A stretch of 38,840 nucleotides of DNA, from positions 1 to 38,840 of the forward strand of contig JAEUHV010000409.1 of NCBI GenBank assembly GCA_016794485.1, in the 5' to 3' direction. Under the pieces are notes generated by a model. It made no database searches, had not been told where the DNA came from, and saw nothing but the letters and a program-made list of their open reading frames with translations. The first letter of the stretch is position 1, and each line of letters opens with the position of its first letter. Of the stretch, positions 9,251 to 37,017 are shown piece by piece. The DNA is from Planctomycetota bacterium (lineage in GTDB: Bacteria > Planctomycetota > UBA1135 > UBA2386). The position numbers were made by a program, and so were the translations under genes.

Positions 9251-9258
9251 CGGACGGT

Positions 9259-10815
9259 CTAGCGTTCTTTCGGGATGTAGACGCGCGGTCCCGCGGGCGA
9301 GGCGACCGGCTTCGCCACCGGCGACGGCGCCGGCGACACCGGCACGACGTCCTGCGGCCCGCGGTGCACGGGGACCTGGGGCCGCGCACGCTTTTCGCGC
9401 GCGGCGATCGGCCCCTGCAGTTGCGGCGCCAGCGCCTGCGCATCGAGTTCGACCGTTCGCTGCACGAACGCGAAGTCGCCGGCCAGTTCGTCCCAGGCCG
9501 CCAGCGGCGCCACGCAGGCGAGCACCAGGAAGCGGCCCTGGTGCGCGATCACGTCGAGCTGCGCCCGCGTCGGCACGCCGTCGCGTCGCCCCGTCGCGAA
9601 CAAGCGCACGGCCGGCCGTTCGCGCATCGCCACGTCGGAGCGCGACTCGACGGTGAGGCCGGGCTGGAGCAGGCGGAACCAGGTCGCGACGGCGTCGGCG
9701 GCGCTCGGCAACGGCGTGCCGGGTTCGAGATGGTCCAGGCGCGACAAGCTGATGCTGGCGCCGTGCGGCTCGCACGCGAGCACGAGGGTACCGGCGGCGA
9801 CGCCGTCGCGGGTGATCCACGCCGGATTCGGCAACCACAGGCCGAACGTTCCGCCGGCTTCGGCCACGATCGCCGGCGCTATCGACACCGCCCCGACGGC
9901 GGTGCGGCAGCTCGCGGCACTGCTCGGCACGGCGACCAGCGCCGGGCCCGAGAGTTCGCGACGCAGCGTGCGCGCGGTCGCGTCGACCCACTCGGCATTG
10001 CGGCCGGAAGCGCCCGACTCGGCGACCTCGGTGATCTGCATCGGCTGGCCGTCGATCGTCACGGTGCGACGCCGACTGCCGTCGTAGCTGCGCACGACCA
10101 GTTCCTGCGTCGCCGGATCGAACAACGTGCGTTCGCCGAGCGCGGCCGTGGTGATTCTGGCCAGCACGCGCGCCAGCAGCGGGAACGTGTGCGCGCGCGT
10201 CCACCGCAGCTGCCGTTCGCTGCGCCCGGACGCGTCGAGGATCTGTACCGCGAGCCGATCGCCTAGGACCTTCGCTTCGACGATGCGTTCGTCGACCACC
10301 CGTTCCTGCGCCGACGCGGCGTCGCTGCCGTCCGGCAGCAACACCGGCAGGACCGGCTCGGTGATGCGTTCGCGGAAATAGGCGGTCGTACCGTCGCCGT
10401 TCGCCGCCGCGGTCGCCTGCGAAGTGACCTGGTAGCGCCGCCGGCCGTGCTGGAACTCGTATTCCTCGGCGACGACGAAGCCGTCGGCGCGGGGCGAGAC
10501 GCTGGTCGACAACCAGCCGACCGCCTGCCCCTTGGCGTCGTGCAGCACGAACCACTCGGCGCTGCGCGCGACCGTGCCCGGGGCGGCCGCGGCAGGGCCG
10601 GCCCCGCGGTGCACGGCGGCGACCTGGGCGGTCGCGATGCCGATGGTCGCGCCGGCCTCGAGTTCGATCTCGAGGTAGCCGTCGAGCGAAGTGGTGATGC
10701 GGCCTTCGAGCCGGTCGCCGTTCTTCAGTTCGACCACGTCCCGCGCGGGCCGTGCCTCGGGGGATTGGGCGGGATCCTGGCAGGCGAGCAACGACGTGAG
10801 CAGCAGGGGGATCAT
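9259..10815 (-). CDS. Secreted lipoprotein-like protein with small beta-barrel N-domain
   Basis: 518 residues; no named family recognised. The ATG at 10815 opens a short hydrophobic leader, IPLLLTSLLAC, whose C12 could be a lipidation cysteine with the less usual lipobox LLAC, so it is probably exported. A DVVELKNGDRLEGRI strand-turn-strand (about 26-40) resembles the SH3/LSm-like beta segment common at the front of planctomycete surface proteins. The rest is beta-rich with a DGSRRRTVTIDGQPM segment mid-protein, and a Pro/Val/Ala-rich, Arg-containing tail of about 60 residues. A GGAG ribosome-binding site lies 7 bases before the ATG. It follows the glycosyltransferase gene by 44 bases and closes the long leftward operon. 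Confidence 0.72.
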   Translation of the reverse strand: MIPLLLTSLLACQDPAQSPEARPARDVVELKNGDRLEGRITTSLDGYLEIELEAGATIGIATAQVAAVHRGAGPAAAAPGTVARSAEWFVLHDAKGQAVGWLSTSVSPRADGFVVAEEYEFQHGRRRYQVTSQATAAANGDGTTAYFRERITEPVLPVLLPDGSDAASAQERVVDERIVEAKVLGDRLAVQILDASGRSERQLRWTRAHTFPLLARVLARITTAALGERTLFDPATQELVVRSYDGSRRRTVTIDGQPMQITEVAESGASGRNAEWVDATARTLRRELSGPALVAVPSSAASCRTAVGAVSIAPAIVAEAGGTFGLWLPNPAWITRDGVAAGTLVLACEPHGASISLSRLDHLEPGTPLPSAADAVATWFRLLQPGLTVESRSDVAMRERPAVRLFATGRRDGVPTRAQLDVIAHQGRFLVLACVAPLAAWDELAGDFAFVQRTVELDAQALAPQLQGPIAAREKRARPQVPVHRGPQDVVPVSPAPSPVAKPVASPAGPRVYIPKER

Positions 10816-10859
10816 GCGGAGACTCCGCCGCTCGTATCGAACCGCCGATGCGAAGGGCT

Positions 10860-12551
10860 TTACCGCGCTGTCGGCGAATCCGACGCCGCCGGAGGCCGCG
10901 GCCGTGCGGCGAACCAGGCGAACAGCACCGCGAAGGCCACCGGGGGCAGCAGCAGCGCCCACCACGGCAGTTCGAGCACGTCGCCCCAGAACCGCCACCA
11001 CAGATGGCGGCCGCTGCGGTCCTCCCACCGGACCGGAGCGACCTTCTGCCGTTCCGTTGCCGCCTCGGCCCCGAACACCGCGGCGATGGCGCGTCCGTCG
11101 CGCGCCGCGTAGCCACCGACCTCGAACCCCCCGCCGGCGCTGGCGACCGCGTAGCGCCAGTTCGCCACCAGCGGCGTGAACTCCACGCGCCAACTGACCG
11201 GATCGGCCATGTCGGTCTCGTCGGCGGCGAGACCCCGCGCCCACGCCGCCTGGTCGGCGAGCTGCTTCACGCCGCGCACCGGTGCCACCACGCTGGTCAG
11301 GCACGCGAACGCACCGAACGCGGCGAGCGCCCAGCACGCCTTCGGCCAGCGCCGCCATGGCGTCGCCTGCGGCAGCACGATCGCCAGCAGCAGCACCAGG
11401 CCGTGCGTCACGTAGCGCGCGCCCCAGCATTCGCCGCCCTGCCAGCCGCGCGCGCGGGCGAAGAACCACAGGGGGAACAGGAACACGAGCCACGCGAGCC
11501 AGCGCCAGTGCACCGGGACGCGCCGGTTCGCGGCGAGCGGCAGCGCCAGCCACACGATCGGCGATAGCCACGCGACGCCGCGTCCGGCGGCGAACAGGAT
11601 CTTCACCGCACCGAGCCATGCCGGCTGGTCGAGCCAGGCGTCGACCTTCGGATAGCCGGTGTCGAACGGGTCGCCGAAGCGCGCGTGGTTGGCCAGCAGC
11701 AGCAGTGCCGCCGCCGGCAGCACGCCGAGGACGAATGCGACCACCGGCCACGGCCGGCGCGGCCGCCGACACGCGAGCAGCAGTGCTAGGCCGATCGGCA
11801 CCAGCAGGGCCGCGTTCTGGTAGCGCAACGACACCGCGGCGCCGCCGCACAATCCGCCGAGCAGCGCCGTGCGCACGCCCGCCCCGGACCGCACGTTCGC
11901 GACGGCCAGCACCGTGGCGAGCAGGAGCACGAGACCGGGCCCGTCCGACAGCGTCTCGCGCCCGAACGCGAAACACTGCGTCGTCAGCAGGATCACCAGG
12001 GCCGTCGTCCACGCGTCGCGGTCGCCGGCCCCGAGGCGCCGGGCCAGCAGGAACAACAGCAGCAGGATCGACGCGGCGCATGCGGGCGGCAGCAGCACCG
12101 ACACGAGGCCCTGGACCAGCACGGGGCTGCCGCGGGTGTGTTCGAGCGTGGTGCGCGCCTGCTCCGGCGTCTGCCCGGGCGCCGCGTGCGTCCGGAACGC
12201 CGTGTCGATTCCCGGCCAGGCCCGCTCGACCGAGTCGCCGACCCAGGCGAACGGCACCAACAGCAGCTGATGGCCGAACGGAAACCACGTGTAGGCGATG
12301 CCGTCGGGCCCGACCTTGCCGGCGATGCCAAGGCCGATGGCCTGCGCCGCCTGCGCTTCACCGACCGACGTCGCCCCCTGGTCGGCGCGCCGGATGCCGC
12401 TGTCGCCGCGTTCGACCAGGTTGCGCGCCGCCAACAACGTGAAGCCCGCGTCGGTGGTCTCGAAGTTGCCGTGCGCCACCGCGACGAACGCGAAGAACGT
12501 CGCCAGCCATGCGGCGAACAGGCGCCGGAACGGAGTGCGGGAGCCGTTCAT
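10860..12551 (-). CDS. Polytopic membrane glycosyltransferase, GT39/ArnT-like
   Basis: 563 residues with about ten to twelve hydrophobic helices and a soluble C-terminal section before a last helix. The first periplasmic segment has acidic residues E31 and D34 (FETTDAGFTLLAARNL), placed like the catalytic acidic residue in the first loop of GT-C enzymes, followed by a long loop with WFPFGHQ. GT-C enzymes move sugars from polyprenyl phosphate to protein or lipid on the outer face of the membrane. The acceptor is unknown, and the GT-C call rests on topology and the loop motif rather than strong similarity. The ATG at 12551 overlaps the stop of the transporter gene upstream (ATGA, 12548-12551). 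The long open frame continuing upstream is a shadow. Confidence 0.72.
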   Translation of the reverse strand: MNGSRTPFRRLFAAWLATFFAFVAVAHGNFETTDAGFTLLAARNLVERGDSGIRRADQGATSVGEAQAAQAIGLGIAGKVGPDGIAYTWFPFGHQLLLVPFAWVGDSVERAWPGIDTAFRTHAAPGQTPEQARTTLEHTRGSPVLVQGLVSVLLPPACAASILLLLFLLARRLGAGDRDAWTTALVILLTTQCFAFGRETLSDGPGLVLLLATVLAVANVRSGAGVRTALLGGLCGGAAVSLRYQNAALLVPIGLALLLACRRPRRPWPVVAFVLGVLPAAALLLLANHARFGDPFDTGYPKVDAWLDQPAWLGAVKILFAAGRGVAWLSPIVWLALPLAANRRVPVHWRWLAWLVFLFPLWFFARARGWQGGECWGARYVTHGLVLLLAIVLPQATPWRRWPKACWALAAFGAFACLTSVVAPVRGVKQLADQAAWARGLAADETDMADPVSWRVEFTPLVANWRYAVASAGGGFEVGGYAARDGRAIAAVFGAEAATERQKVAPVRWEDRSGRHLWWRFWGDVLELPWWALLLPPVAFAVLFAWFAARPRPPAASDSPTAR

Positions 12552-14122
12552 CGCGGGCCTCCGAGCGCCCACGGATCGACGCCGAGCAGCGGCAACGACC
12601 ACCACCACAGGAACGGCAGCAGCAGGGCCGCGGCGAGCAGGTCGATGCACAGTCCGGCCCGCACCATCTGGCCGAAGGTGACGAGGCGCGAACTGAACAC
12701 GATGGTGTTCGGCGGCGTCGCGATCGGCAGCATGAAGCCGCACGACGCGGCGAGCACCGCCGGCAGCATCAGCACGAGCGGGTCGATCTTCGCGCCGACC
12801 GCGCCATCGCGCAGGATCGGCAGCAGCAGCGTCGCCACCGCGGTGTTGCTGGCGATCTCCGACAGCAACGTGATCGCGAGCACCAGCACGAGCAGCAGCA
12901 CGGCCGGATGCACGCTGCCGATCAACGGCCGCAGCAGTTCGCCGAACGCCGCCGAAACGCCGGTCGGACCGAACGCGTCCGCCATCGCGATGCCACCGCC
13001 GAGCAACAGCAGCAGGTCGAACGGCATCTGCCGCGCGGTCTCCCAGTCGACCAGCGTCCGCCGATCCGGCGTGCCGGCCGGGACCAGGAACGCGAGGATC
13101 GCCACCGCGACCGCCACCGAACCGTCCGCGATCCAGCGGTCGCGCTGGCCGTGGGGCACGAGCCAATGGGCCCAGCCGTGCAGGACCTCACCGCTGCCGA
13201 GTTGCAGGTCGCCGCGTGTAGTCCACAGCAGGACGGCGAGCAGGAACAACGCGCCGATGCGGCGTTCGGCCTTGCTCCAGCGACCGAGGGCTTCGGCTTC
13301 GGCGAACAGGACGTCGGCCCGGTGCAGGCGTGCGTTCGGCAGCGGCAGGGCGAACCGGGTCACCACGAAACTCGCCGCGACCGCGAGCAGCAGGACATAC
13401 GGCGCGAATGCCAGCGTCCACGACAGGAACGAAACCGGCCGCGCACCCTGCTGCACCAGCGGCTCGTAGGCCGAGAAGAAGATCGCGTTGGGTGCCGTGC
13501 CGATCGGCGTGCCCATGCCGCCGATCGACGCGCCGTACGCGATTGCACACATCACCCCGGCCCCCAGGTTGCGCACCGCCGTCGGCGACAGTTCGCCGAG
13601 GTCGCGCACCCGCTGCACCAGCACCGCGCCGATCGGCAGCAGCAGCAGCGCCACGGAGGTGTTGTTCATCCACAGCGAGAGGAACGTCGCCGCCGCGAAG
13701 AAACCGAACACCAGACGCCGCGGGAACGGGCCCACGGCCACCACGGTGCGCAGCGCCAGCCGCCGGTGCAGGCCGGCGCGTTCGATCGCCATCGCCAGTA
13801 CGAAGCCGCCGCCGAACAACCACAGGATCGGATCGCCGTAGCCCTTGGTCACCTCGGCGGTCGACTGGACGCCGAGCAGCGGCAGCAGCGCCAGCGGCAG
13901 CAGCGCCGCCGCGGCGATCGGCATCGCCGCCAGCAGCCAGCACGCCGTGGTGAGGCCGGTGACGAACAGGAGCCGGCAGGCGATTTCCGGCTTCGCGTCG
14001 GCCGGGTACGGCAGCCCGTGCCCAGCCCACCAACACGCGCCGCCGACCAGCACGGCCAGCGCGAGCTTGCGGTACGACACCTGCCGCCCCGCCTCCGGTT
14101 CGGATGCGATGGTCTCGGTCAT
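12548..14122 (-). CDS. DASS/SLC13-type sodium/anion symporter
   Basis: 524 residues with many membrane helices. Members move dicarboxylates, sulfate or citrate inward with Na+. The two signature hairpins are visible: WMNNTSVALLLLP at about 151-163 and SEIASNTAVATLLLP at about 421-435. The paired PN motifs GTPIGTAPN (204-212) and LPIATPPN (465-472) line the substrate path. The first SNT motif reads NNT, while the second is canonical SNT. This may shift substrate preference, but family identity is clear. The ATG at 14122 lies 7 bases after the cutA stop, and the gene's own stop overlaps the next gene by 4 bases. Neither neighbour suggests the substrate. Confidence 0.92.
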   Translation of the reverse strand: MTETIASEPEAGRQVSYRKLALAVLVGGACWWAGHGLPYPADAKPEIACRLLFVTGLTTACWLLAAMPIAAAALLPLALLPLLGVQSTAEVTKGYGDPILWLFGGGFVLAMAIERAGLHRRLALRTVVAVGPFPRRLVFGFFAAATFLSLWMNNTSVALLLLPIGAVLVQRVRDLGELSPTAVRNLGAGVMCAIAYGASIGGMGTPIGTAPNAIFFSAYEPLVQQGARPVSFLSWTLAFAPYVLLLAVAASFVVTRFALPLPNARLHRADVLFAEAEALGRWSKAERRIGALFLLAVLLWTTRGDLQLGSGEVLHGWAHWLVPHGQRDRWIADGSVAVAVAILAFLVPAGTPDRRTLVDWETARQMPFDLLLLLGGGIAMADAFGPTGVSAAFGELLRPLIGSVHPAVLLLVLVLAITLLSEIASNTAVATLLLPILRDGAVGAKIDPLVLMLPAVLAASCGFMLPIATPPNTIVFSSRLVTFGQMVRAGLCIDLLAAALLLPFLWWWSLPLLGVDPWALGGPR

Positions 14123-14129
14123 GGCCGGC

Positions 14130-14456
14130 TCAAGGCCCCGCCACCGCGTCGGCGAGCCAGCGCAGGTAGGCCGGCAGGCCGCCGTCGATGGCGACTTCGA
14201 GGATCTCGGGCACGTCGTACGGATGCAGCGCGGCGAGGCGCGAACGCAGGTTGGCGGCGGCCGCACGCGTGGTCTTGGCCAGCAACAGGCACTCGTCGGC
14301 GGTGTCGACCTTGCCCTGCCAACGGAACACCGAACGAACGCCCGGCAGCACGTTGACGCACGCGCACAAGCGCTCCTCGACCAGTTGCCGCGCCAACCCG
14401 TCGGCGGCCGCCAGCGGCGCCGTGCACAGCACGAGGACGGCGTCGGCCGCGGTCAT
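14130..14456 (-). CDS. cutA: CutA-type divalent-cation tolerance protein
   Basis: 108 residues, the standard CutA size. Signature stretches are present in order: the LCACVNVLPGVRSVFRWQGK core (30-49), the DECLLLAKTT strand (54-63) and HPYDVPEIL (78-86). CutA forms a very stable trimer with a ferredoxin-like fold. It was named for copper tolerance in E. coli, but its actual role remains unsettled. No signal peptide is present. The ATG at 14456 overlaps the stop of the metallophosphoesterase gene (ATGA, 14453-14456), and the transporter gene follows after 7 bases. It is part of the central nine-gene transcript. Confidence 0.94.
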   Translation of the reverse strand: MTAADAVLVLCTAPLAAADGLARQLVEERLCACVNVLPGVRSVFRWQGKVDTADECLLLAKTTRAAAANLRSRLAALHPYDVPEILEVAIDGGLPAYLRWLADAVAGP

Positions 14457-15202
14457 TTGCCGCGCGCCAACCGTTCGGCCAGGGCCGGATGCAGGCCGGC
14501 GGCCAGGATCTTGGCCTGGGTGCGGCGGAAGTCGTACGGCACCCGATGGATCTCGACGCGGTCGTCGTGCACGACCGCGAACGACGCGCGTGGATCGCCG
14601 TCGCGCGGCTGGCCGACGCTGCCGACGTTCACGATGCACGGGCCGTCGATCTTGAACTCGCGCTGCTCGTCGGTCGCCTGCGAGAACCGGTAGTCGGGGC
14701 GATGCACCCCAGGCCAGTGCGTGTGGCCGACGAAACACGGCCGGTCGAGCATGCCGAACAGCTGCGCCATCTTGTCCGGCTCCAGGAAGCCATCGCTCTT
14801 CAGCACGTATTCCATCACCGGGTCGCGCGGCGAACCGTGGCAGAACAGGAAGCCGTGCGCTTCGCGCCGTTCGGGCAGCGTGCGCAGGAACTCCCAGGCG
14901 GCCCGGCGGCGCGGCCGCAGGAACGACGGCCGCAGCTGCGCCCGGGTGTAGAGCAGGGCCTCGCGGGCCAGCGGGTTGAAGTCGTCGAGTTCGTGGAACA
15001 GGCCCCAGTCGTGGTTGCCGAGGATCGTCCACGCGCAGCGCTGCATGACGCGCAACGTCACCGGCAGCGGATCGGCGCCGTAGCCGACCACGTCGCCGAG
15101 GCACGCGACCTCGCGCACACCGAGCTGGTCGATGCGCGCGAACACGGCGTCGACGGCCTCCAGATTGGCGTGCAGATCCGAGATCAGCGCGAACGTGCTC
15201 AC
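14453..15202 (-). CDS. Metallophosphoesterase, YfcE/ApaH-like
   Basis: 249 residues from a GTG at 15202. All calcineurin-type metal motifs are in place: D9-x-H11 (ISDLHAN), GDVVGYG (36-42), GNHD (62-65), CHGSP with H122, and GHTH (159-162), followed by the NVGSVGQPRDGDPRASF stretch typical of the single-domain bacterial phosphodiesterase group that reads GSVGQPRD. Enzymes of this type hydrolyse phosphodiesters such as cyclic or dinucleoside substrates; the natural substrate is unknown here. It is cytoplasmic. The GTG start overlaps the stop of the DHH phosphoesterase gene (GTGA, 15199-15202) and its stop overlaps cutA, so all three are translationally coupled. Being fused in expression to an NrnA-like enzyme favours a nucleotide substrate. 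Confidence 0.92.
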   Translation of the reverse strand: MSTFALISDLHANLEAVDAVFARIDQLGVREVACLGDVVGYGADPLPVTLRVMQRCAWTILGNHDWGLFHELDDFNPLAREALLYTRAQLRPSFLRPRRRAAWEFLRTLPERREAHGFLFCHGSPRDPVMEYVLKSDGFLEPDKMAQLFGMLDRPCFVGHTHWPGVHRPDYRFSQATDEQREFKIDGPCIVNVGSVGQPRDGDPRASFAVVHDDRVEIHRVPYDFRRTQAKILAAGLHPALAERLARGK

Positions 15203-16188
15203 GCGCGCCGCCCGTTCGCGAGCGTCGCCAGCGCTTGCTGCACCCCGGCCTCGATCGCGGCCACGGCCGCGGGCAAGCCCATCTTCATGGTCGCGCCCGC
15301 CGCCTTCTTGTGCCCACCGCCACCGAACTGGGCGACGATCGCCTGCACGTCGACGTCGGCGCGCGCGCGCAGGGAACACTTCACGGTGCCGTCGAAGCGC
15401 TCCTTCAGCAGCGCCACCACCTCGACGCCGTCGAGTGAACGCAGCGGGTCGAGCACGGCGTCGGTGTCGAACTCGCTGCGCGCGGCCCGTTCCATCAACG
15501 CCTTGTCCAGACCCACCAGCGCCAGCTTGCCGCCGAGACGCAGCTGGTGCTTCCCCAGCATCTCTGCGAGCAGGCCGGCGGAGTCGGGGTGGTTGCGGCG
15601 GTACAACGCGTCGTAGATCTTCGAGCCGTCGACGCCCGCGGCGACCAGTTCGCTGGCCATCGCGAACACCTCGGCGTCGGCATTGCTGTAGCGGAACCAG
15701 CCGGTGTCGGCGACCAGCGACAGGAACACGCCTTCGGCCGCGGCCTTGCCGAGCGGCACGGCCAGTTCGCGGTAGAGACGCCGCACCAGCGCTCCGGTCG
15801 CCGCGGCCGTCGGGTCGACATAGCAGATGCTGCCGTCGCCGCGGTCGCTGCCGACGTGGTGGTCGACCACGGCGATCGGTTGGCCGCTCTGCTGCAGTCG
15901 TTGGCCGAGCACGCCCACTCGCGCGAGCTGGCAGCAATCGAGCAGGACCACCGCGTCGAAGTCCGGCAGCGGTTCGTCGGTGCGGGCGTGCGCGAACGGC
16001 GTGTGCTGCTGCAGGAAGTCGTGGCTGCGGCCGATCGGGTCCGGGTTCACGATGTGCACCTGCTTGCCCAGCGCGCGCAGCAGGTGGAACAACGCCACCT
16101 CGGCGCCAAGGCAATCGCCGTCGGGGTTCTCGTGACCGGTGAGCAGGAAGGAGCGGCGGCTGCGCAGGAAATCGAGGAACGTGGTCAC
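15199..16188 (-). CDS. nrnA: DHH/DHHA1 phosphoesterase, NrnA-like (nanoRNase/pAp phosphatase)
   Basis: 329 residues from a GTG at 16188. Motif I GHENPDGDCLGA (18-29) gives H19, D23 and D25; motif II has D84 in LLDCC; the DHH triad is at 109-111 (VVDHH); D161 lies in DTGWFRYSN. The C-terminal DHHA1 domain ends with the substrate-binding GGGGHKKAAG (289-298). NrnA enzymes degrade 2-5 nt RNA and often 3'-phosphoadenosine 5'-phosphate; related proteins cleave pApA from c-di-AMP. Length and domain order are standard. The gene begins 38 bases after the amidohydrolase stop and overlaps the next gene by GTGA. Confidence 0.94.
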   Translation of the reverse strand: MTTFLDFLRSRRSFLLTGHENPDGDCLGAEVALFHLLRALGKQVHIVNPDPIGRSHDFLQQHTPFAHARTDEPLPDFDAVVLLDCCQLARVGVLGQRLQQSGQPIAVVDHHVGSDRGDGSICYVDPTAAATGALVRRLYRELAVPLGKAAAEGVFLSLVADTGWFRYSNADAEVFAMASELVAAGVDGSKIYDALYRRNHPDSAGLLAEMLGKHQLRLGGKLALVGLDKALMERAARSEFDTDAVLDPLRSLDGVEVVALLKERFDGTVKCSLRARADVDVQAIVAQFGGGGHKKAAGATMKMGLPAAVAAIEAGVQQALATLANGRRA

Positions 16189-16226
16189 GAGCTTCCGGCA
16201 GACTGTACGGGGCGCCGTGCAGCGGC

Positions 16227-17438
16227 TCAACGCCGGGGCCTGGCCGAACGCACCCGTTGCGTGCCTGCCACCCACACCGCCGTGGGCATCGCCCCGCTGG
16301 CGACGACCGCATCGCGCGTGGCGGCGACCGTGGCCTGCGCAGGCAGCGTGCAGAAGTCGGCATGGCCTCCCGGCCGCAGTCGCCCGAGCCCCGGACGGCA
16401 GAGGGCGCGGGCCCCATTCGTGGTCGCCATGGCCAGCACCTGCACCGGCGTCAGTCCGGGCCAGAGTTCCAGCGCCCGCGCCATTTCCCGGCGCAGCGAC
16501 AGGCCGGTGTTGCTCGCCCGGGAATCGGTGCCGAGCGCGACCGGAATGCCGGCCGCGAGCCACTTCGGCACCGGCGGCGGGGTGCGGCCGAAGTACTCGA
16601 TCGTGCCCGGGCACACGACGATCGCGGCCCCCGACTGCGCGATGCGCGCGACGTCGCCGCGCTCGAGTTCCTGGCAGTGGACGAGCTGGGTGCGCGTCGT
16701 GAGCGCGCCGAGCCGTTCGAGCCAGCGCACGGCACCCATGCCGGGCGCGCGGAAGCCCGGCGGCAAACGGCCGAGTCGCGCCAGCAATTCGGCGAACGGG
16801 CCGCGGCCAGTGCGCAGGAACTGCTGCTCCAGAGGCACCTCCGCACAGTGGATCGCGAGCGGCGCCCGGGTCGCGACCGCGGCGCGGAACAGCTCGGCGG
16901 ACACCGAGTACGGCGCGTGCGGCGAGTAGCCGCCGGCGGTGGCGGCGCGGGAACGCGGCAGTGTCGGCCGTTCGCGCAGCAGTGCCCGCGCGCCCGCGCG
17001 ATCGAGGTGGAAGCCGGTCAACTCGCGGTAGCAGCGGCCACGCATGTCCGCGCCCGCCAGACGGGCGGTGCTGGTCCCGGTCGAATCGATGTCGCCGACG
17101 GCGAGGCACCCCTCTTCGGTCAAGGCGACGAGCGCCGCCCCGATGCGGCGCCGTTCGTCCGCCGCGGTGCTCGCGGCGCGCGCCGCCAGCACCGCGCCGA
17201 TCCACGGCACGAACGACTCCGGACGCTGGGCCAGCGCCGGCAACTGCAGATGCACGTGCGCATTGACGAGGCCGGGCATCACGGCGACGTCCTCGAGCCG
17301 CGTGCCCTTCCTGGCGCGGCGCACCGAGACGATGCGGCCTTCGGCGCTCCAGACGATCTCGCCACCTTCGAGCCAGTGGTCGGCGTCGAGCGCGATCCAG
17401 CGGGCGGCCAGGCGGCCGCCCGCAGCACGCCGGCTCAC
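16227..17438 (-). CDS. Amidohydrolase, aminodeoxyfutalosine deaminase-like
   Basis: 403 residues from a GTG at 17438, which overlaps the stop of the large lipoprotein gene (GTGA, 17435-17438). Metal and catalytic residues of the TRZ/ATZ/SsnA deaminase group are present: HVH (61-63), H197 (IHCAE), H254 (VHCQE) and D305 (LGTDSRASN), with E200 beside H197. The SPHAPYSVS stretch (172-180) and the FVPWI segment (76-80) are reminiscent of aminodeoxyfutalosine deaminases (MqnX) of the futalosine menaquinone route. No other mqn gene is in the window, so I keep the substrate open: another nucleoside or guanine-like base is possible. The open frame upstream of the GTG is a shadow of the lipoprotein. 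Confidence 0.85.
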   Translation of the reverse strand: MSRRAAGGRLAARWIALDADHWLEGGEIVWSAEGRIVSVRRARKGTRLEDVAVMPGLVNAHVHLQLPALAQRPESFVPWIGAVLAARAASTAADERRRIGAALVALTEEGCLAVGDIDSTGTSTARLAGADMRGRCYRELTGFHLDRAGARALLRERPTLPRSRAATAGGYSPHAPYSVSAELFRAAVATRAPLAIHCAEVPLEQQFLRTGRGPFAELLARLGRLPPGFRAPGMGAVRWLERLGALTTRTQLVHCQELERGDVARIAQSGAAIVVCPGTIEYFGRTPPPVPKWLAAGIPVALGTDSRASNTGLSLRREMARALELWPGLTPVQVLAMATTNGARALCRPGLGRLRPGGHADFCTLPAQATVAATRDAVVASGAMPTAVWVAGTQRVRSARPRR

Positions 17439-20212
17439 GTGCGCGCGAACACGCGCAGGGCAGTGACGACCTGGTTCGGGAACGCAGCCCGGTTGTAGTT
17501 CAGCAAGAACCGGAAGCCGGTCACCGAGTCCTGCGCGATGCCGGGGCCCGCACCCGTGCCGACACCTTCGCGCCAGGCGCGGATCGTGCCTTCGAGCGGC
17601 GCGTTGCCGGCCTGGTTCATCGTCGCGCCCTGGAACAGGATCACGACCGGACCATTGGGGTCGTTGGCCTTCACCGTGCCGGCTTCGCCGGAGTCGGTGA
17701 AGAACAAGTCGGCCGTGCCATTGCCGTCCGAGTCGACTTCGAGCTCGTAGCGGAGCCACACCGGCGGGAACACCTGGTTGCTGCTGCGCCAGATCGAAAG
17801 GTCGCCCGAGAGGCTGTCGCGGTCGTTCAGGGCACCGGAGTTGTTGGCCGCATTGAACGCGGGGACCGTGGCGGCGAGGCCGTTCCACGTCACGCCTTCC
17901 GCCGCCTCGAGACGGTAGAAGCCGTGCGAGCCCGCACCCGCCTGGCAGACGATGTTGAACTGCGTCGGCTGCGTGATGGTGCCGTAGCCCTGCGCGCGGC
18001 TACCCGCCCCACCCGCGGTGTCGAGCAGGCCGTTGCAGACGATGCCGCGGCCCGACTGCAGCAGGAACGAACCACCCGAGCCACCACCACCCGGCGTCGA
18101 GATGCCGAAGTTGAAGTCGGCAGCGGTGGTCGCGGTGTCGTCGCCACTGATCACGACGCCAGCCCCGCCCTTGGCCAGGAGCCGGGCCGTGCTGGCGATC
18201 GTCATCGTGCCGCCGCAGCGCAGCATCACGGCACCACCGCCACCCGAGCCACCGTGGCCAGCCATGAAGTAGTCGTTGGCGATCACGCTGGCGAGCAGAC
18301 CGAAGCAGCCCGAGCCACCACCGCCGCCACCCGAACCGCCGACCAGGAAGTGGTCGAGCGACTGGTAGCCGGCGGGCGGAGCGACCGGGAGCGGCAGCAG
18401 GGGGAACGCGACCGCAGCCGGGGGCACCGGGCCGTAGTTCGCCTGGTTGCCCGGGTTGTTGGCGTTGGTCAGCGGCGACGGCGTCGGGATCGGCGTCGTC
18501 GCGTGCTGGGCGCCGGCGAGCATGAACCCACCACCGCCACCACCGGCCGTGAAGCGCGCGCGGTAGCCGGTGCCGGGGTTGATGGTGCCGACCTGGATCG
18601 TCAGGTTGTTGGCGATCGTCGAAGTGCCTTCGAACGGGTGCATGGCCGAACCGCGGCCACCCGTGTTCGCTGCCTGGGCCGCATACGCATGGCTGGCGAG
18701 CACACGCACGCCGCCACCGGACTGGCCGTCGGTGACGACGACGCCGTTCACGGTGATGGCGCCGGCGCCGAGGCATTCGCGGCCGCCCGCACCGCCAGCA
18801 GCGCCACCGCAGCCGCCCGGACCACCGGGCTGGCCTTCCACCTGCACGGTCGAACCGTTGACGCCGTTGCCGGTTTGCGGCGTGCGGCAGTTGCGGTTGG
18901 TCGCGTGCTGGTTCGCCAACGGACCGCTGGTCGGCACGACGTGCGGCATGTCGGCCGCGCTGACGTCGATCGTACCACGCAGGTCGACCTGGCCGCGCAC
19001 GAAGATCTGCGCCGGCACCGAGCCGACGAACTTCACCGTGATGCCCTCAGGCACCACGAAGTCGGTGAAGTAGAAGCGACCGTCGGTGACCGTGAAGGCG
19101 TTGCCGCTCGGCGTGTTGGCGCCGGGGATCGTGAAGTTGTCGACGTTCCACTCGTAGGTGCTGTTGCCGAGGCCGACGCCGTTCTGCGGCTTGAAGGAAC
19201 CGTGGCGACCGTCGCCGCCGATCAAGCCGGGGCGCGCGCCGTTGTTCCAGACGCCGCCCGAGACCAGGGCAACCTGGCCGGCCGAGTTGGCGAACGACTC
19301 GTTGAAGTTGATTGGCGTCGACACGCCCGCGACCGTCAGCATCTCGAACTGGCGCGGAATCGCAGCGCGGCCCGAAAGGTCGCGCAGGTCCGACGTGACG
19401 TAGACCGTGAGGCACGAGGTGCCCGGCAGGGTCACCGGCGGCTGGTAGGTCACGACGGTGACGTCGCGCCCGTTCACGTTCTCGGTCGACAGGCTCGGCA
19501 GGCCTTCGAGTGCGATGCCTTCGGCGTCGCGATCACAGGAACCACCGGGCAGGGTGCCACGCAACACGACTCGCACCGGCGACGCCGCACTGAGCGGGCT
19601 CTGCAGCGCGGTCGTGTCGATGAGCTCCGAGAAGCGCAACACGATGGTCGGATCGAGCGGGATCGCGTTGGTCGACACGGGCGCCACGAGTTCGACCGTC
19701 GGCGGCTGCTGGTCGTCGTCCTGGATGCCGAGCGAAGCGCGGACCGTGCAGGTGAACTCCTGCGTCAGCGTGTCCCCGGCGAGGCTCTTGATGCCCTGCG
19801 CACCCGAGTTGCCACCAAGGACCGTGATGATGTAGCTCTCGTTGCGCAGGAAGCCGAACGTGCTGACGCCGTTCGAAGTGCTCACGCGCGGCGCGAACAC
19901 AACCTCGCTGCCGTTCACCAGGTAGTCACCTTCGGGAGCGACACCGGTCGCGGTGCGGATCGAGAAACTGGCACCGTTGACCGACGCCGGCTCGACCAGG
20001 TCCGAGAACTTGAAGCGCAGCTTCTGGTTCTCGGCGATCTCCGACACCGAGCAGCCGGTCTGGGTGCAACCCAGGTCACAACTGATGATGCAGAACGACT
20101 GGCCGCCGATGCACTTGATGCGGGCCGAGGCCGTGTCGTCCGTCGAGCCGCCGGAACATCCGGCGAACAACGACAGGCCGGCAAGGAGCGAGAGGGTGTA
20201 GGCGTTGCGCAT
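17435..20212 (-). CDS. Giant Cys/Gly-rich lipoprotein with Ig-like domains (paralogue A)
   Basis: 925 residues from the ATG at 20212. An ATG 8 codons earlier is possible but would push the signal peptide inward. A lipoprotein signal ends in LFAGC with C19 as lipid anchor. Next comes a compact cysteine cluster, C34, C41, C45, C49 and C54 (core CDLGCTQTGC), then two SbsA-type Ig-like units (about 58-170 and 175-300; KFSDLVEPASVNGASF and LRFSELIDTTAL). The middle opens with IGGDGRHG and a DVSAADM beta segment, and holds many Gly-rich loops. The C-terminal domain has DSDGNGTADLF, a possible calcium loop. Likely displayed on the cell surface or envelope; the function is unknown. It lies 31 bases after its paralogue and is coupled to the amidohydrolase downstream. 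Confidence 0.83.
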   Translation of the reverse strand: MRNAYTLSLLAGLSLFAGCSGGSTDDTASARIKCIGGQSFCIISCDLGCTQTGCSVSEIAENQKLRFKFSDLVEPASVNGASFSIRTATGVAPEGDYLVNGSEVVFAPRVSTSNGVSTFGFLRNESYIITVLGGNSGAQGIKSLAGDTLTQEFTCTVRASLGIQDDDQQPPTVELVAPVSTNAIPLDPTIVLRFSELIDTTALQSPLSAASPVRVVLRGTLPGGSCDRDAEGIALEGLPSLSTENVNGRDVTVVTYQPPVTLPGTSCLTVYVTSDLRDLSGRAAIPRQFEMLTVAGVSTPINFNESFANSAGQVALVSGGVWNNGARPGLIGGDGRHGSFKPQNGVGLGNSTYEWNVDNFTIPGANTPSGNAFTVTDGRFYFTDFVVPEGITVKFVGSVPAQIFVRGQVDLRGTIDVSAADMPHVVPTSGPLANQHATNRNCRTPQTGNGVNGSTVQVEGQPGGPGGCGGAAGGAGGRECLGAGAITVNGVVVTDGQSGGGVRVLASHAYAAQAANTGGRGSAMHPFEGTSTIANNLTIQVGTINPGTGYRARFTAGGGGGGFMLAGAQHATTPIPTPSPLTNANNPGNQANYGPVPPAAVAFPLLPLPVAPPAGYQSLDHFLVGGSGGGGGGSGCFGLLASVIANDYFMAGHGGSGGGGAVMLRCGGTMTIASTARLLAKGGAGVVISGDDTATTAADFNFGISTPGGGGSGGSFLLQSGRGIVCNGLLDTAGGAGSRAQGYGTITQPTQFNIVCQAGAGSHGFYRLEAAEGVTWNGLAATVPAFNAANNSGALNDRDSLSGDLSIWRSSNQVFPPVWLRYELEVDSDGNGTADLFFTDSGEAGTVKANDPNGPVVILFQGATMNQAGNAPLEGTIRAWREGVGTGAGPGIAQDSVTGFRFLLNYNRAAFPNQVVTALRVFART

Positions 20213-20243
20213 GGGAGACTGGGATACAGCGAACACTGGGCGG

Positions 20244-23123
20244 TCAGACGCGGTAGACGATCACGATCTGGTCGATCGTGATCACCTGACCCACGGTGTA
20301 GTCGGCGAACAACTGGAAGCGGAAGCCGTTGAGGCCATCCGACGCGATGCCGGTCTGCGTCGGACTGCTGCGCACGCTCGTGCGCCACGGAGCGATCTGC
20401 ACCGGGACCTGGGTCGACAGGTCGAGCTGGGCTCCCTGGAACAACGCGCGCACCGGCGCGCCGATCGTGGCGGCCTGGGTCGACACCGCGGGGTCGTCGC
20501 TGAGCAGGAACGGCACGCCGTCGACGGTGCCGCGGATCTCGTAGCGGGCGAACTCGGGGCCGAAGATCAGGTTCGTCGAGTACCACTTCGACTGGCAGAC
20601 GACGAGGTCGTCGCGTTCGTTCAGCGGGCCGATGTTGTCGGCGACCGGCGCAGGCTGCATCGTGCCGAGCTGCGACAGGGTGGCGCCTTCCCCGGTTTCG
20701 AGACGGACGAAGCCGGCCGACCCGTCACCACCGGCGATCTGCAGAACGACGCCGCTCGGCGACGCGCCACCCGCGGTGCCCGCGGTCCGGTTGAACACGC
20801 CGCCGAGGCCGCCGCGCACGTCGATCTGGCCGGTCAGGTCGACGGTGCGCCCCGCCTGCAGCACGATCGAACCACCCGAACCACCGCCACCCGGCGTCGG
20901 CTGGGCGATCGCCGCGGTGCCGGTCGAGTTGGCCGCCGAACCACCCTTCGCCAGCACGCGTCCGGCCGGGCCGATGCGGAGCAGGTCACCGGCGCGCAGG
21001 GCCACGGCACCACCACCACCACCACCGCCGCAGCCCACCGCGAACTTGTCCGCGGTGGCATTCATGGCCAGGGCCGCGTGGCTGGCGCCACCGCCACCAC
21101 CCGAGCCGCCGATGAGGAAGAACTCGCTGGAACGCGTGATCGTGCCCGAGGGAGCCGGGAACGGGAACAGCTGCAAGGCCACGCCACCCGAAGCCTGCGG
21201 CCCCATCTGGTTGGTCGAGGGCTGCGCCTGCGCCGCGATCGTGAACCCGCTCGCCGTCGGCGGCGTGGTCCACGCCGGCGACACCGTCAACGTCGTCGCC
21301 GAGTTGAACAGGACCGTGCGCGACTCCCCGGTACCCGGGCCACTGGTGATCGTCACCGTGCGGCCGGTGAAGCGGTTTGCCAGCCAGGCCGGCACCGGAG
21401 CCGCGACCAGCGTGGTCGCCGTGGCTCCGACCGAGGTGCCCGTGAAGGCGAGGTCCGAGTGGTTGTTGGAGACCACGCGGCCGGGTGCGCCGGCGACGAG
21501 GAACCCACCGCCCGCACCGCCTGCCGCGGCCGAGACGCAGTACGAGGGCACCGCGGTCGAGCCGTAGTAGAGGTGCGCGCTCAGGCCCGTCGTCGGGAAC
21601 ACGGTCGATCCCGCACCGCCGGAGTTCAGGAGGCTGGAGGCATAGCCGTGACCCGAGATCATCCGCGCATTTTCACCGCGCACGCCCTGGTGCTGGATCT
21701 GGGCACCGGTGGTGCTCGCCTGGGTCTGCGAGATCTTGTCGCCACCCTTGCCGCCGGCCCCGGCGAAGATGCCACCGGGTGCACCGGCCTGGCCCAGCGT
21801 CGAGCCGACCGTCGGCTGCAGGGTGATTCCCGTGCCCGACACGTCGATGTCGCCCAGCACGTCGAAGCGGCCGGCAACCGTGATGACCGGCGGACGCGAG
21901 CCGATGAACTTCAGCTTCACGTTGCTCGGCACCACCATCTGCGTGAAGAAGAACCGGCCGTCCGTGATCGCGATCGGGCTGCCGGTCGACGTGTTGCTCG
22001 CCGGAATGATCGTGTTGTCGGTGTTGAACTGGTAGACCAGCTTGCCGTCCTGGGTCGTGTTCGTGTTGGTCGCCAGGGCGAGGCTGAACGGGCCGTGCCG
22101 GCCGTCACCGCCGATCCGCGCGAACGAACACTGGCCGTTGGCCCAGGTCGCTGCCGAGAACTCCGTCTCCAGCTGCGTGTTGCTGTCGAACTCCTCGACC
22201 TTGCTCTCTTCGACGAGCGGCACCACGACGGTGCGGAACGTGAACGTCTGCGGCTGCGCCGGGCGCCCCGACAGGTCGGCGACGCCGTCGGTGACGTTGA
22301 TCTCGACACAGATGTTGCCGGGCAGCTCCTGCACCGGACGGAAGGTCAGGATCGAGATGCCGCGGCTGACGTCGAAGTCGAGCGCCTGCGTGCCCCCCAG
22401 CGTCTGCGGCGCAGAGTTCGGATCACACTCGTAACCGCCGCCCGTGGCGATGCGGTTGCGCCGCACGGAGAACGTGACCGGGCTCTGCGTCCCCGACAGG
22501 AACGGCGTCGCGTCGATCATCTCGTTGAACTCGAGCACGATCTCCGTGTTGCGTGGCGCACTCCCGACCTGGACCGAGGACGGCGACACCATCGTCGCGC
22601 GCGGCGCCACACCGTTGAGGTCGACGATGCCCAAGGTCGACTGCAGCGTGCAGGTCAACGTCTTGTCGAACGGCTTGCCCGACAGGCTGCGCACGACGTT
22701 CGGCTGGTCGGCGCCGCCGGGGATCGTCATCGTGTAGGTCTCGCCGGCGGAGAACCCGAAGAACGTCTGCCCCCCCGAGATCGACAACGTCGGCACGAAC
22801 TCGACCTGGTTGCCGTTCACCAGCAGTTCGCCGATGGGCTGGTCACCGCTGGCGGTGCGGAACCGGATCGACGAGCTGTTCACCGAGTTCGGATCGATCG
22901 CCTCGCTGAACTGCAGGATGACGATCTGGTTCTGCGCGATGTCGGTGCGCGAGCAGCCGGTCTCGCTGCAACCCAGATTGCAGTTCTGGATGCAGATGGT
23001 CTTCGCCCCCGCGGTGCCGCAGTCGAACGACAGCTGTGCGGTGCCAGAGCTGCCTCCCGAGCAACCCGCAAGGGCGCCGAGGGCAAGGAGTAGTGCTACT
23101 GCGTGCGAACTACGGACGGACAT
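20244..23123 (-). CDS. Giant Cys/Gly-rich lipoprotein with Ig-like domains (paralogue B)
   Basis: 959 residues from the ATG at 23123, preceded by a GAGG-like site. The lipobox is ALAGC, with lipid cysteine C21. The same cysteine cluster follows: C35, C44, C48, C52 and C57 (core CNLGCSETGC). SbsA-type Ig units come next (LQFSEAIDPNSVNSSS and LEFNEMIDATPF), then IGGDGRHG, a DVLGDIDVSGTG beta segment and Gly-rich loops up to nine Gly in a row. The domain order equals paralogue A, so the pair arose by duplication, though the sequences are now far apart. An extra segment of about 80 residues, rich in Thr/Val (ATATTLVAAPVPAWLANRF onward), is absent from A. First gene of the central operon; probable envelope protein of unknown function. 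Confidence 0.83.
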   Translation of the reverse strand: MSVRSSHAVALLLALGALAGCSGGSSGTAQLSFDCGTAGAKTICIQNCNLGCSETGCSRTDIAQNQIVILQFSEAIDPNSVNSSSIRFRTASGDQPIGELLVNGNQVEFVPTLSISGGQTFFGFSAGETYTMTIPGGADQPNVVRSLSGKPFDKTLTCTLQSTLGIVDLNGVAPRATMVSPSSVQVGSAPRNTEIVLEFNEMIDATPFLSGTQSPVTFSVRRNRIATGGGYECDPNSAPQTLGGTQALDFDVSRGISILTFRPVQELPGNICVEINVTDGVADLSGRPAQPQTFTFRTVVVPLVEESKVEEFDSNTQLETEFSAATWANGQCSFARIGGDGRHGPFSLALATNTNTTQDGKLVYQFNTDNTIIPASNTSTGSPIAITDGRFFFTQMVVPSNVKLKFIGSRPPVITVAGRFDVLGDIDVSGTGITLQPTVGSTLGQAGAPGGIFAGAGGKGGDKISQTQASTTGAQIQHQGVRGENARMISGHGYASSLLNSGGAGSTVFPTTGLSAHLYYGSTAVPSYCVSAAAGGAGGGFLVAGAPGRVVSNNHSDLAFTGTSVGATATTLVAAPVPAWLANRFTGRTVTITSGPGTGESRTVLFNSATTLTVSPAWTTPPTASGFTIAAQAQPSTNQMGPQASGGVALQLFPFPAPSGTITRSSEFFLIGGSGGGGGASHAALAMNATADKFAVGCGGGGGGGAVALRAGDLLRIGPAGRVLAKGGSAANSTGTAAIAQPTPGGGGSGGSIVLQAGRTVDLTGQIDVRGGLGGVFNRTAGTAGGASPSGVVLQIAGGDGSAGFVRLETGEGATLSQLGTMQPAPVADNIGPLNERDDLVVCQSKWYSTNLIFGPEFARYEIRGTVDGVPFLLSDDPAVSTQAATIGAPVRALFQGAQLDLSTQVPVQIAPWRTSVRSSPTQTGIASDGLNGFRFQLFADYTVGQVITIDQIVIVYRV

Positions 23124-23565
23124 TACGGCCTCGTATCGAGAAAGGGGGGACGGAACCTGATCGACGCCGACGAGAGGGGATCGTGAGGCGGCAGACCGGG
23201 ATGCGAGGATGGGCAAGGAAACCATACCGCAGGGGAAGCTGCAAGGTCGGGCGCCGAAGGAACTGGCGATCGAACCTGCGCGGGTGCGGCCCGGCCGACA
23301 ACTTCCATGCCGCTGTCCATGGTCGCGACCGCGCCGCGCAACTCCCGACGGCGCCGCAAGAATCGACAGCAGAACTGGGATCGGCCGATGCCAGCGAGGA
23401 GCACTTCGGCACCTCGATTGCGCGGTATCGAACATCTGCCCGGGCGGAGCCGGGTCGCGGTTTCGCCGTCCGACGGTCCGCCGACCGCCCTGTGCGGCCG
23501 GGCACGGCGACGTTCGCGTCCGAACATGCCGTGACGCCGCCCCGGCCGACCAATAGCTTCGCGGC
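23124..23565. other. 442-base divergent intergenic region
   Basis: This is the largest non-coding gap in the window, between the operon start at 23123 (leftward) and the HEAT-like gene at 23566 (rightward). Base composition is slightly less extreme than in the genes. Short open frames cross it on both strands, but none has a recognisable protein, a start with ribosome-binding site or consistent codon bias. I looked for sigma-70 boxes: a TATGGT lies on the minus strand near 23225, but no -35 sits at proper spacing. It must hold the promoters of both transcripts, yet I cannot place them. Confidence 0.5.
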
Positions 23566-24618
23566 ATGACCGGAACCCCATCCGCACCCCGCCCCGCACC
23601 GGGTTGGATCGCCCCTGCCGTGGTCGCCCTCGCCCTCGGCGGTCTCGCCTGGCAGCAGTGGCAGGCCCGAGTGGCCCTCGACGCCCTGGGCACCGCCGCC
23701 GCCGCGAACCAGAAGGTGCTCGACGAGATGTATGCGGAAGTCACCCGCCTGCGCATCGAACAGAGTGCGGGCACCAAAGGCCCCCAGGCGCTGCTGGACA
23801 AGCTGAAGGTCTACGCGCCGCTGCTGAACAACTCGCGCATCACCGAGCCCGACTACCAGTCGGCCCGCAAGGAGATGGAAGCGATCCTGCGCGCGTTCGC
23901 GACGCTCGGCACCGACGCGTGGAAGCCGGTGAGCGACCGGCTCGACAAGTGCACCCCCGAGGTCGAGTACGACGAGATCAAGTGGCTGCTCGAGGCCACG
24001 GCGCGCATCGACCGCGACGCCGCCAAGAAGCTCGTGCAGGAAGTGCTGCTCGGCCGCAAGTTCCCGTCGCCGCGGCTGCGCTGGTTCGCGGCCGAACTGC
24101 TCACCCGGATCGACCAGACCCTGGCCCAGAACCTGCTTCGCCAGATCCTGCTGACCGAGTCGAGCCGCGGCGTCGACCCGGCCCGGATCGCGCAGTACGG
24201 CGGCGGCATCCCGGACAAGGCGGCGCTGTCGGCGACCGGTTTCAACAACTTCGTGCAGTGGTACCTGCGCACCGGCGACCCGCGCATGGACGAAGTGCTG
24301 CAGCAGGTGATCGCGCGCACCGAACACGACGCGATCACGGTGCAGGACTGCGTGAAGGCGCTCGGCGCGCGCAAGGTCGCAGCGGCGGTACCGCAGATCG
24401 AGAAGCTCTACCTGAACCCGCCGAACCAACAGGAGAACCCGATCTTCCTGAACTACTGCCTCGAAGCGCTGGCGGAGATCCAGGGCAAGGAGTGCAAGCC
24501 GTTCCTCGAGGCCGCCCTGGCGAAATCGCCGCACGAGGCGATCACGCGCCGGATCCAGGACCTGCTGCACCGCATCGACACCGGCCAGCTCGACGCGAAG
24601 AAGGTCGAGCAGAAGTGA
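23566..24618 (+). CDS. Membrane-anchored helical (HEAT-like) repeat protein
   Basis: 350 residues, family not recognised by name. A single N-terminal membrane segment (about 13-30, WIAPAVVALALGGLAW) is followed by a coiled-coil-like stretch (NQKVLDEMYAEVTRLRIEQ). The remainder is a chain of amphipathic helix pairs, for example SPRLRWFAAELLTRID, ARKVAAAVPQIEKLYL and LNYCLEALAEIQGKECKPFLEAAL, which read as degenerate HEAT or PBS-lyase-type repeats. It has no catalytic motif. It is probably a cell-envelope scaffold with its helical part in the periplasm. The ATG at 23566 gives the membrane anchor at the right place. It ends 16 bases from the convergent stop of the cupin gene. Confidence 0.75.
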   Translation: MTGTPSAPRPAPGWIAPAVVALALGGLAWQQWQARVALDALGTAAAANQKVLDEMYAEVTRLRIEQSAGTKGPQALLDKLKVYAPLLNNSRITEPDYQSARKEMEAILRAFATLGTDAWKPVSDRLDKCTPEVEYDEIKWLLEATARIDRDAAKKLVQEVLLGRKFPSPRLRWFAAELLTRIDQTLAQNLLRQILLTESSRGVDPARIAQYGGGIPDKAALSATGFNNFVQWYLRTGDPRMDEVLQQVIARTEHDAITVQDCVKALGARKVAAAVPQIEKLYLNPPNQQENPIFLNYCLEALAEIQGKECKPFLEAALAKSPHEAITRRIQDLLHRIDTGQLDAKKVEQK

Positions 24619-24634
24619 CCGGCGCAGCGGCCCC

Positions 24635-25108
24635 TCAGGCCGTCAGGAACTCGATCGCGCCGGCCGGCAGGAAGTAGAGGATCAGCATCTCCCCGCCCCG
24701 CACGGTCGGCACGTGCACCGAGCCCTTGCCGTAGACGACCCAGCCGGCATCGTGGCCGTCGAACTTCGGCGCGCCCTTGGTCGCCATGCACAGGTCGATC
24801 TCGCCGTTCGGATGGCGGTGCTTGGGGCCTGGCACGTCCATCAGCACCGCGTCGACCGAGAACCCGAGCAGGTCCTTCACGACGCGGCCGAAGCGGATGC
24901 CGGCGTTGCTCTTCGGCAGCATCCAGTCCGAAGCGATGTTGGCGATCGCCGCCCGCTGCACGGCGGCGACTGCGGGACTGGCGAACGGCAGTTTCGCCGC
25001 ACAAAGCACCGCCGCGTCCTTGGCGTCGACGTCGAAGCCCTGCAGGGCCTGGGCCAGCGGGCGCAGCAGTTCGACGAACTGCTCCTTGGTCATCGTCTGG
25101 GTCGTCAT
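24635..25108 (-). CDS. 4-hydroxylaminobenzoate lyase (PnbB)-like / DUF4863 cupin-type protein
   Basis: 157 residues from the ATG at 25108 (an ATG at 25093 is an alternative). The C-terminal half has a cupin-like pattern: KHRHPNGEIDLCM (about 96-108) with H97, H99 and E103 as likely metal ligands, then PKFDGHDAGWVVYGKGSVH (114-132) with H132, and GGEMLILYFLPAGAIEF (138-154). This order fits the DUF4863/PnbB family as I recall it, whose studied members turn 4-hydroxylaminobenzoate into protocatechuate and ammonia. No nitroaromatic catabolic gene is nearby, so the native substrate may differ. It is the last gene of a three-gene leftward operon, 14 bases after mog. Confidence 0.65.
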   Translation of the reverse strand: MTTQTMTKEQFVELLRPLAQALQGFDVDAKDAAVLCAAKLPFASPAVAAVQRAAIANIASDWMLPKSNAGIRFGRVVKDLLGFSVDAVLMDVPGPKHRHPNGEIDLCMATKGAPKFDGHDAGWVVYGKGSVHVPTVRGGEMLILYFLPAGAIEFLTA

Positions 25109-36204: not shown

Positions 36205-36208
36205 GAGA

Positions 36209-36214
36209 CTCTCC
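36209..36214 (-). promoter_or_regulatory. Ribosome-binding site of pilin-like gene 1
   Basis: GGAGAG on the minus strand, 4 bases before the ATG at 36204. Clear Shine-Dalgarno sites are rare in this window, so its presence before both pilin genes suggests high translation. Confidence 0.7.
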
Positions 36215-36226
36215 GTTGAGCTCCTC

Positions 36227-36274
36227 TGCAAAACCGGCGACGCCCGCGCGCGGCGAAGCCGGGCGCGGGCGTCG
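36227..36274 (-). terminator. Putative intrinsic terminator/attenuator between the pilin genes
   Basis: A perfect 12-bp stem is formed by CGACGCCCGCGC (36238-36249) and GCGCGGGCGTCG (36263-36274). Inside it, after one G-G mismatch, CGGC (36251-36254) pairs with GCCG (36258-36261) around a GAA loop, giving 16 base pairs in all. In the leftward direction the stem is followed by CCGG and then TTTT (36230-36233). It lies about 45 bases after the stop of pilin-like gene 2. The T-run is short and slightly displaced, so partial termination (attenuation of pilin 1 and the glycosyltransferases) is more likely than full stop. Confidence 0.6.
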
Positions 36275-36319
36275 GGGACCGACAGGGGCGGCGGAGCCGC
36301 ACCGATCAGCCGAGGGGCG

Positions 36320-37003: not shown

Positions 37004-37007
37004 GATG

Positions 37008-37013: not shown

Positions 37014-37017
37014 GTGA

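Follow-up and report, generated by a model that had tools for sequence, protein, structure and literature searches.

Two diverged paralogous lipoproteins with an undescribed C-terminal module head an old, probable mixed operon in Planctomycetota

Why should the genes for two large lipoproteins come first in a string of housekeeping-type genes? The question is raised by a 38,840-nt stretch of DNA (the window; contig JAEUHV010000409.1, C464 in our numbering) from a Planctomycetota metagenome-assembled genome of 5.94 Mb that is 83% complete. The two genes concerned, LpA and LpB, are as follows.

20244..23123, minus strand: LpA, 959-aa lipoprotein; ATG at 23123, stop ending at 20244; lipobox, Cys cluster, two Big_5 stretches, and a C-terminal module with a glycine-rich insert
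17435..20212, minus strand: LpB, 925-aa paralogous lipoprotein; ATG at 20212, stop ending at 17435; modelled with AlphaFold both whole and as residues 300-925

The account that we favour overall, at about even confidence, is that LpA, LpB and their relatives (the Lp family) are surface lipoproteins with an immunoglobulin (Ig)-like stalk and a jelly-roll head, adhesive or structural in role, whose genes are co-transcribed with housekeeping genes.

Both open reading frames (ORFs) were recovered with the lengths claimed in the sequence-only reading of the window, and showed the coding-type bias in GC content at third codon positions. They are separated by 31 nt on the minus strand. Full-length alignment of LpA with LpB gave 39% identity, and BLASTP a segment of 36% identity over 269 aa (E 1e-26), in agreement with the earlier description of the pair as paralogous yet widely diverged. 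The two proteins have in common a signal peptide leading to a lipobox with Cys at +1, a cysteine cluster (five cysteines besides the lipobox Cys in each N-terminal region), two stretches of the Big_5 domain (PF13205; 51 and 33.1 bits against a gathering score of 23.6), an IGGDGRHG box, glycine runs, and a C-terminal domain, the module, of about 630 residues. Across 78 family members, the lipobox was present in 77, a count that is partly circular because starts were chosen partly by lipobox, and the pattern C-x3-C-x2/3-C-x4/5-C in 70. The glycine-rich box is less general: G[GN]D[GA]RHG occurs in 51 of the 78 and the exact GGDGRHG in 45, the window pair counted. The IGGDGRHG box proposed earlier thus holds for LpA and LpB, but was dropped as a mark of the family. 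At window positions 21204-21485, LpA residues 547-640 form an insertion of about 90 residues that is absent from LpB; it was seen in the first-copy rows of L007, L009 and L020 (L numbers denote loci) and was missing from other rows, so that this insertion is itself a variable module.

A search of Pfam at E <= 1 with LpA and LpB returned Big_5 alone, with no YkuD or peptidoglycan-binding domain and no autotransporter barrel, and NCBIfam gave no match. An enzyme or transpeptidase role was rejected, since no catalytic domain was matched in Pfam. The module matched no entry of Pfam, NCBIfam or PHROGs and, at the sequence level, no solved structure; when the PDB was searched with a sequence profile up to E 1, the sole match was to the glycine-rich beginning of a CsrA chain. 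A tblastn search with the LpB module (E 1e-5) gave no match in phage and plasmid collections, which, with the lack of a PHROG match, led us to reject a phage or plasmid origin. A limited open-licence literature search found no paper containing GDGRHG, which does not show the family to be unpublished. By these sequence comparisons, the Lp family and its module are not described in the libraries searched, and the earlier statement that the family is not well described stands, its only Pfam matches being to the generic Big_5 domain.

The family is widespread in the order to which the source genome belongs. A profile of LpA and LpB, a check of the kind that the sequence-only reading had proposed, matched the own genome and 60/60 relatives. 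In a sample of the phylum, 46 of 199 genomes matched at E <= 1e-8 (the own genome and 11 others of the order included), many of them on the Ig-like or glycine-rich part alone. A scan of species genomes with two peptide patterns, which reaches only what those patterns detect, found 32 loci, of which 26 carry the title Planctomycetota, Planctomycetia or Phycisphaerales, five are titled only bacterium or uncultured bacterium, and one is titled Candidatus Kuenenia stuttgartiensis. The last (L016, CAMAUH010000268.1) carries close relatives of LpA and LpB, and its title is probably that of a misnamed bin.

LpB is followed on the same strand by seven genes, and LpA is faced by one neighbour on the other strand. 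Starts of the downstream genes were chosen from candidate start codons; f numbers denote families.

16227..17438, minus strand: amidohydrolase (Amidohydro_1), GTG start, 4-nt overlap with the LpB stop; likely aminofutalosine deaminase
15199..16188, minus strand: DHH/DHHA1 phosphoesterase, NrnA-like, 38 nt from the amidohydrolase gene
14453..15202, minus strand: calcineurin-like metallophosphoesterase (Metallophos_2), 4-nt overlap with the nrnA-like gene
14130..14456, minus strand: CutA1 family protein, 4-nt overlap with the metallophosphoesterase gene
12548..14122, minus strand: DASS family sodium-coupled anion symporter, 7-nt gap; a variable part of the cluster
10860..12551, minus strand: PMT-like glycosyltransferase, 4-nt overlap with the DASS gene
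9259..10815, minus strand: conserved 518-aa protein, 44-nt gap; no Pfam or NCBIfam match
23566..24618, plus strand: HEAT-repeat protein, encoded divergently at a distance of 442 nt from LpA; found next to Lp in 33 of 39 f1/f6 loci

The earlier claim that housekeeping-type genes follow the lipoproteins with tiny gaps is borne out by the 4-nt overlaps and gaps of up to 44 nt among these seven genes. Scanning the window for Rfam families and tRNAs returned nothing. Within positions 9200-24700 no sigma-70-like promoter site was found, nor any terminator-like site between the cluster genes on their strand; terminator-like sites were no more frequent in this stretch than in shuffled sequence (4 against a mean of 6.3). 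As supposed in the earlier reading, the Lp and metabolic genes may share a promoter and be transcribed together.

The amidohydrolase had as its best PDB sequence match DR_0824 (2imr, E 4e-32), which has reportedly been tested as an aminodeoxyfutalosine deaminase; the likeness to DR_0824 is that of the neighbour, not of the Lp proteins. A chain named aminofutalosine deaminase (7lkj) matched at E 6e-10, and the best NCBIfam model, PRK08418, scored 105 against a cut-off of 320. The genome holds two VitK2_biosynth (MqnA/MqnD family) matches, which fits the identity as an aminofutalosine deaminase that we regard as likely.

To what extent the arrangement is kept was read from relatives. Forty Lp-anchored neighbourhoods, nearly all of families f1 and f6, were sampled (f1 32, f6 7, f3 1), with genes placed by best tblastn match. 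Nine of them end within 112 nt of, or inside, the last Lp gene (L071, L073, L074, L075, L086, L098, L106, L107, L108). The remaining 31 have sequence enough to be read further: in 25 of them the amidohydrolase gene follows Lp on the same strand, and five (L088, L090, L093, L094, L103) have Lp followed by nrnA with no detectable amidohydrolase. Where nrnA could be read (28 f1/f6 loci), the phosphoesterase gene comes next in 28, and CutA is present in 27, the PMT-like gene in 23 and the DASS gene in 14. In families f2, f4, f7 and f8, all 19 genomes, picked by best phosphoesterase match (L155 being dropped as a repeat of L141), have an ORF matching the Lp profile just upstream of the amidohydrolase gene, codirectional and with a gap of up to 414 nt; nrnA lies between the amidohydrolase and phosphoesterase genes in 17 of these. 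The order Lp(-Lp)-amidohydrolase-nrnA-phosphoesterase therefore recurs in the readable families of the order (f1, f2, f4, f6, f7, f8), and chance packing of a mixed operon was dropped as an explanation.

The adjacency extends beyond these families, more sparsely. Among 12 loci anchored on weaker Lp matches, the amidohydrolase gene adjoins Lp in four: L188 (f24), L189 (f5, of the same order; one of two f5 loci), L193 (f71) and L199 (f47). When loci outside the order were anchored on the amidohydrolase instead (20 of 44 genomes matched), Lp was present in three: L201 (f27), L210 and L213 (both f47). Outside the order, then, Lp stands next to the amidohydrolase gene in six loci of four families (f24, f27, f47, f71). 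The f24 protein matches over its full length (E 2e-75), whereas the matches in f27, f47 and f71 are much weaker (E 1e-17 to 1e-32) and lie partly in the generic Ig-like part, so that homology of the whole protein is less sure there.

Several observations weigh against our account. One of the 31 f1/f6 loci, L080 (f1), has an Lp pair, but the 10 kb that follow it contain no downstream gene of the cluster. The other 17 of the 20 outside-order amidohydrolase loci are without Lp, nrnA or phosphoesterase, although three of these are contigs of under 5.5 kb. In 14 of the 19 f2/f4/f7/f8 genomes the convergent gene at the far end, comM, shares a contig with the cluster, some 9-20 kb away from the phosphoesterase gene, and slow regional rearrangement may explain part of the conserved order. 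As a control for synteny we used MoCF (window positions 25123-25656), which was matched in 14 of the 19 genomes at E <= 1e-15, nine strongly; all nine strong matches either fall on a different contig from the cluster or are separated from it by about 300 kb or more. The region rearranges slowly, yet not every neighbour stays. This pattern supports an old operon without proving shared function, and because comM is often nearby too, conserved order alone does not show such a function. Judged from gene order, the odd-looking operon is old rather than accidental. The idea of lipoproteins heading an operon is thus strengthened by the recurrent order and by the 4-nt overlap of LpB with the amidohydrolase gene, but the "mixed" set is not a one-off; it is rather a fixed old neighbourhood.

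Could the Lp proteins belong with other upstream genes? We consider it unlikely that they are pilus-associated surface or export components of a type IV pilus or pseudopilin system encoded upstream, with the metabolic genes as bystanders. In the window, a PilC/GspF-like gene (T2SSF) and a pair of similar pilin-type genes (N_methyl) occupy 35521-38822 on the minus strand, the strand of the Lp genes, but some 12 kb with genes of either strand separates them from LpA. The neighbourhood is closer in f8, where PilC-like and pilin-type genes are both upstream of Lp on the same strand in nine of 15 loci, about 2 kb away in eight; in the ninth, L153, they lie behind a match to a tetratricopeptide-repeat gene. 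L145 has a pilin-type gene alone, and the other five of the 15 stretches start 0-3.3 kb upstream of Lp. In L193, Lp is preceded by genes reading like pilT, pilB, pilC and a pilin gene, of which pilT and pilB are named from motifs. Elsewhere, however, the pilus-type genes are some 4-8 kb from Lp (L080, L086, L103, L105) or are separated from it by two opposite-strand genes (L148, L149), and L200, L202 and L206, three of the 17 outside-order amidohydrolase loci without detectable Lp, have pilin-type genes 2-3 kb upstream of the amidohydrolase gene; this counts against our account as well. No domain ties Lp to pilus proteins.

It is likewise improbable that the whole cluster is one functional module in which, for example, the phosphoesterases or the glycosyltransferase modify or regulate Lp, as by glycosylation through the PMT-like enzyme. 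The tight overlaps, the widely kept codirectional order, the adjacency of Lp and nrnA in the five loci without detectable amidohydrolase and the frequency of the PMT-like gene noted above would all be expected under such a scheme. The cluster enzymes, however, belong to generic housekeeping families, comM shares their neighbourhood, and L080 has the Lp pair without the enzymes.

The folds were then considered. The AlphaFold model of the whole of LpB (42 sequences) had a pLDDT of 86.5 and a pTM of 0.71 and contained two Ig-like domains; that of residues 300-925 (47 sequences) reached a pLDDT of 89.9 and a pTM of 0.88. In structural alignments, the predicted second Ig domain matched the S-layer protein SbsC (chains 2ra1 and 4uic; Z 9.8, root-mean-square deviation (rmsd) 2.6, 100 residues) and S-layer SbsB (Z 8.6), and the Ig-like part matched CopC with Z 9.3. 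The two ends of the module align jointly to a jelly-roll-like sandwich in a phage SU10 tail protein (Z 8.9, rmsd 2.5, 117 residues), and to similar sandwiches in the phi812 baseplate (Z 8.2), Eph ligand-binding domains (about 7), CBM16 (2zew, 7.0) and CBM61 (2xom, 6.5). Module residues 35-497 align to the beta-helix of IcsA (Z 6.5). Together, these models suggest for the module a jelly-roll-like sandwich that is interrupted by a solenoid-like insert rich in glycine. Structure prediction had been proposed as a check in the earlier reading, and it yielded two Ig-like domains and a module without significant PDB match.

Here, too, part of the evidence tells against our account. The top alignment of the Ig domains was to TssM (8q00, Z 10.9), not to an S-layer protein, with L,D-transpeptidase (Z 9.9) and CopC domains close behind, and the Ig fold predicted for LpB is not specific to S-layer proteins. 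Foldseek against the PDB gave no match for the module model at E <= 0.001. The module Z values (6-9) equal or scarcely exceed those reported by the tool when a model has no clear counterpart, and the split jelly-roll is therefore a suggestion. In a separate Foldseek search, the model of LpB 300-925 matched predicted proteins, glycine-rich or resembling collagen, from large DNA viruses and from a phage (E 1e-9 to 1e-4); these matches may reflect composition.

Comparison with known systems shows likeness in parts only. Like S-layer proteins SbsC and SbsB and other Big_5 surface proteins, Lp has two Ig-like stretches above the Pfam cut-off, of which the second aligns to SbsC, but it has a lipobox N-terminus and a module without PDB match at E <= 0.001; Big_5 is all that Pfam lists at E <= 1, and a lattice is not in evidence. 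The predicted sandwich resembles those of CBM16, CBM61 and the Eph type (Z about 6.2-7.2 over 107-118 residues), but is split by an insertion of about 450 residues and has no sequence match to them. In contrast to IcsA, whose passenger is a beta-helix adhesin, and to other type V autotransporters, Lp has a lipobox, and Pfam at E <= 1 showed no C-terminal barrel. That the Lp proteins face inward or reach peptidoglycan, as envelope tethers rather than surface adhesins, is distinctly doubtful: with the whole LpB model, the best Foldseek matches were to the Ig-like domains that mycobacteria have in their L,D-transpeptidases (E 1.9e-5 at best), enzymes that are wall-associated, but the Pfam search at E <= 1 showed neither their YkuD catalytic domain nor a peptidoglycan-binding domain in Lp, and S-layer Ig domains align to LpB as well as theirs do.

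Under the favoured account of adhesive or structural surface lipoproteins, LpA and LpB would be exported, anchored by the acylated N-terminal cysteine and most likely displayed outside the cell. The short cysteine cluster after the lipid anchor would probably form disulfides. Two S-layer-type Ig-like domains, as predicted, would make the stalk, and in the head of about 630 residues the opening ~30 and closing ~140 would form a jelly-roll-like sandwich that carries the large glycine-rich, solenoid-like insertion. Their role would probably be adhesive or envelope-structural, perhaps with glycan binding by the head. The Lp genes would head an old operon with the likely aminofutalosine deaminase, the NrnA-like protein, the metallophosphoesterase, CutA, often the DASS symporter, the PMT-like enzyme and the conserved 518-aa protein; joint transcription would be inherited, and membership of one pathway is not required.

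The same module was found behind other N-termini in seven relatives (L032-L038), with Lectin_C in two, Kelch-type matches in four (two of them weak, E 0.001-0.008) and no match in one. A bolder proposal, which we put forward only tentatively as a possibility well short of even, is that the module represents a hitherto undescribed domain of extracellular proteins, perhaps restricted to Planctomycetota, in which a glycine-rich solenoid interrupts a jelly roll. It would serve lectins, Kelch proteins and surface lipoproteins alike as their head, and its lipoprotein form would be functionally tied to the enzymes whose operon it has shared since before the families of the order split.

The Lp family would add a large unannotated, probably surface, protein family with an undescribed domain to bacteria whose cell surface is poorly known, and the gene order has persisted while the sequences diverged strongly. 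A functional linkage would tie an envelope protein to quinone, nucleotide and phosphoesterase metabolism; otherwise the cluster would be a clear example of an operon inherited from ancient times.

To read the history of the pair, 78 Lp proteins were placed in a quick tree. Within f1 the first copies group apart from the second (support 85 and 95), as they do within f6 (99 and 99), and the two copies of L082 are sisters, as are those of L107. A single LpA/LpB duplication common to f1 and f6 was rejected by an approximately unbiased (AU) test with a quick tree (p 3e-77; 37 rows against 37, with the L082 and L107 rows excluded from both groups after inspection of the 78-protein tree and four unpaired rows placed by their position in it). 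Since grouping the first copies of f1 and f6 together is rejected, either duplication was repeated or gene conversion has homogenised the copies. Two Lp genes are also found at L142, L146 and L150, and in L154 the second sits behind the amidohydrolase gene. In L070 (genome G003, contig C14), the pair is closely preceded by the end portion of a third Lp copy (18799-19572), so that this genome, of the same genus, has at least three tandem Lp genes.

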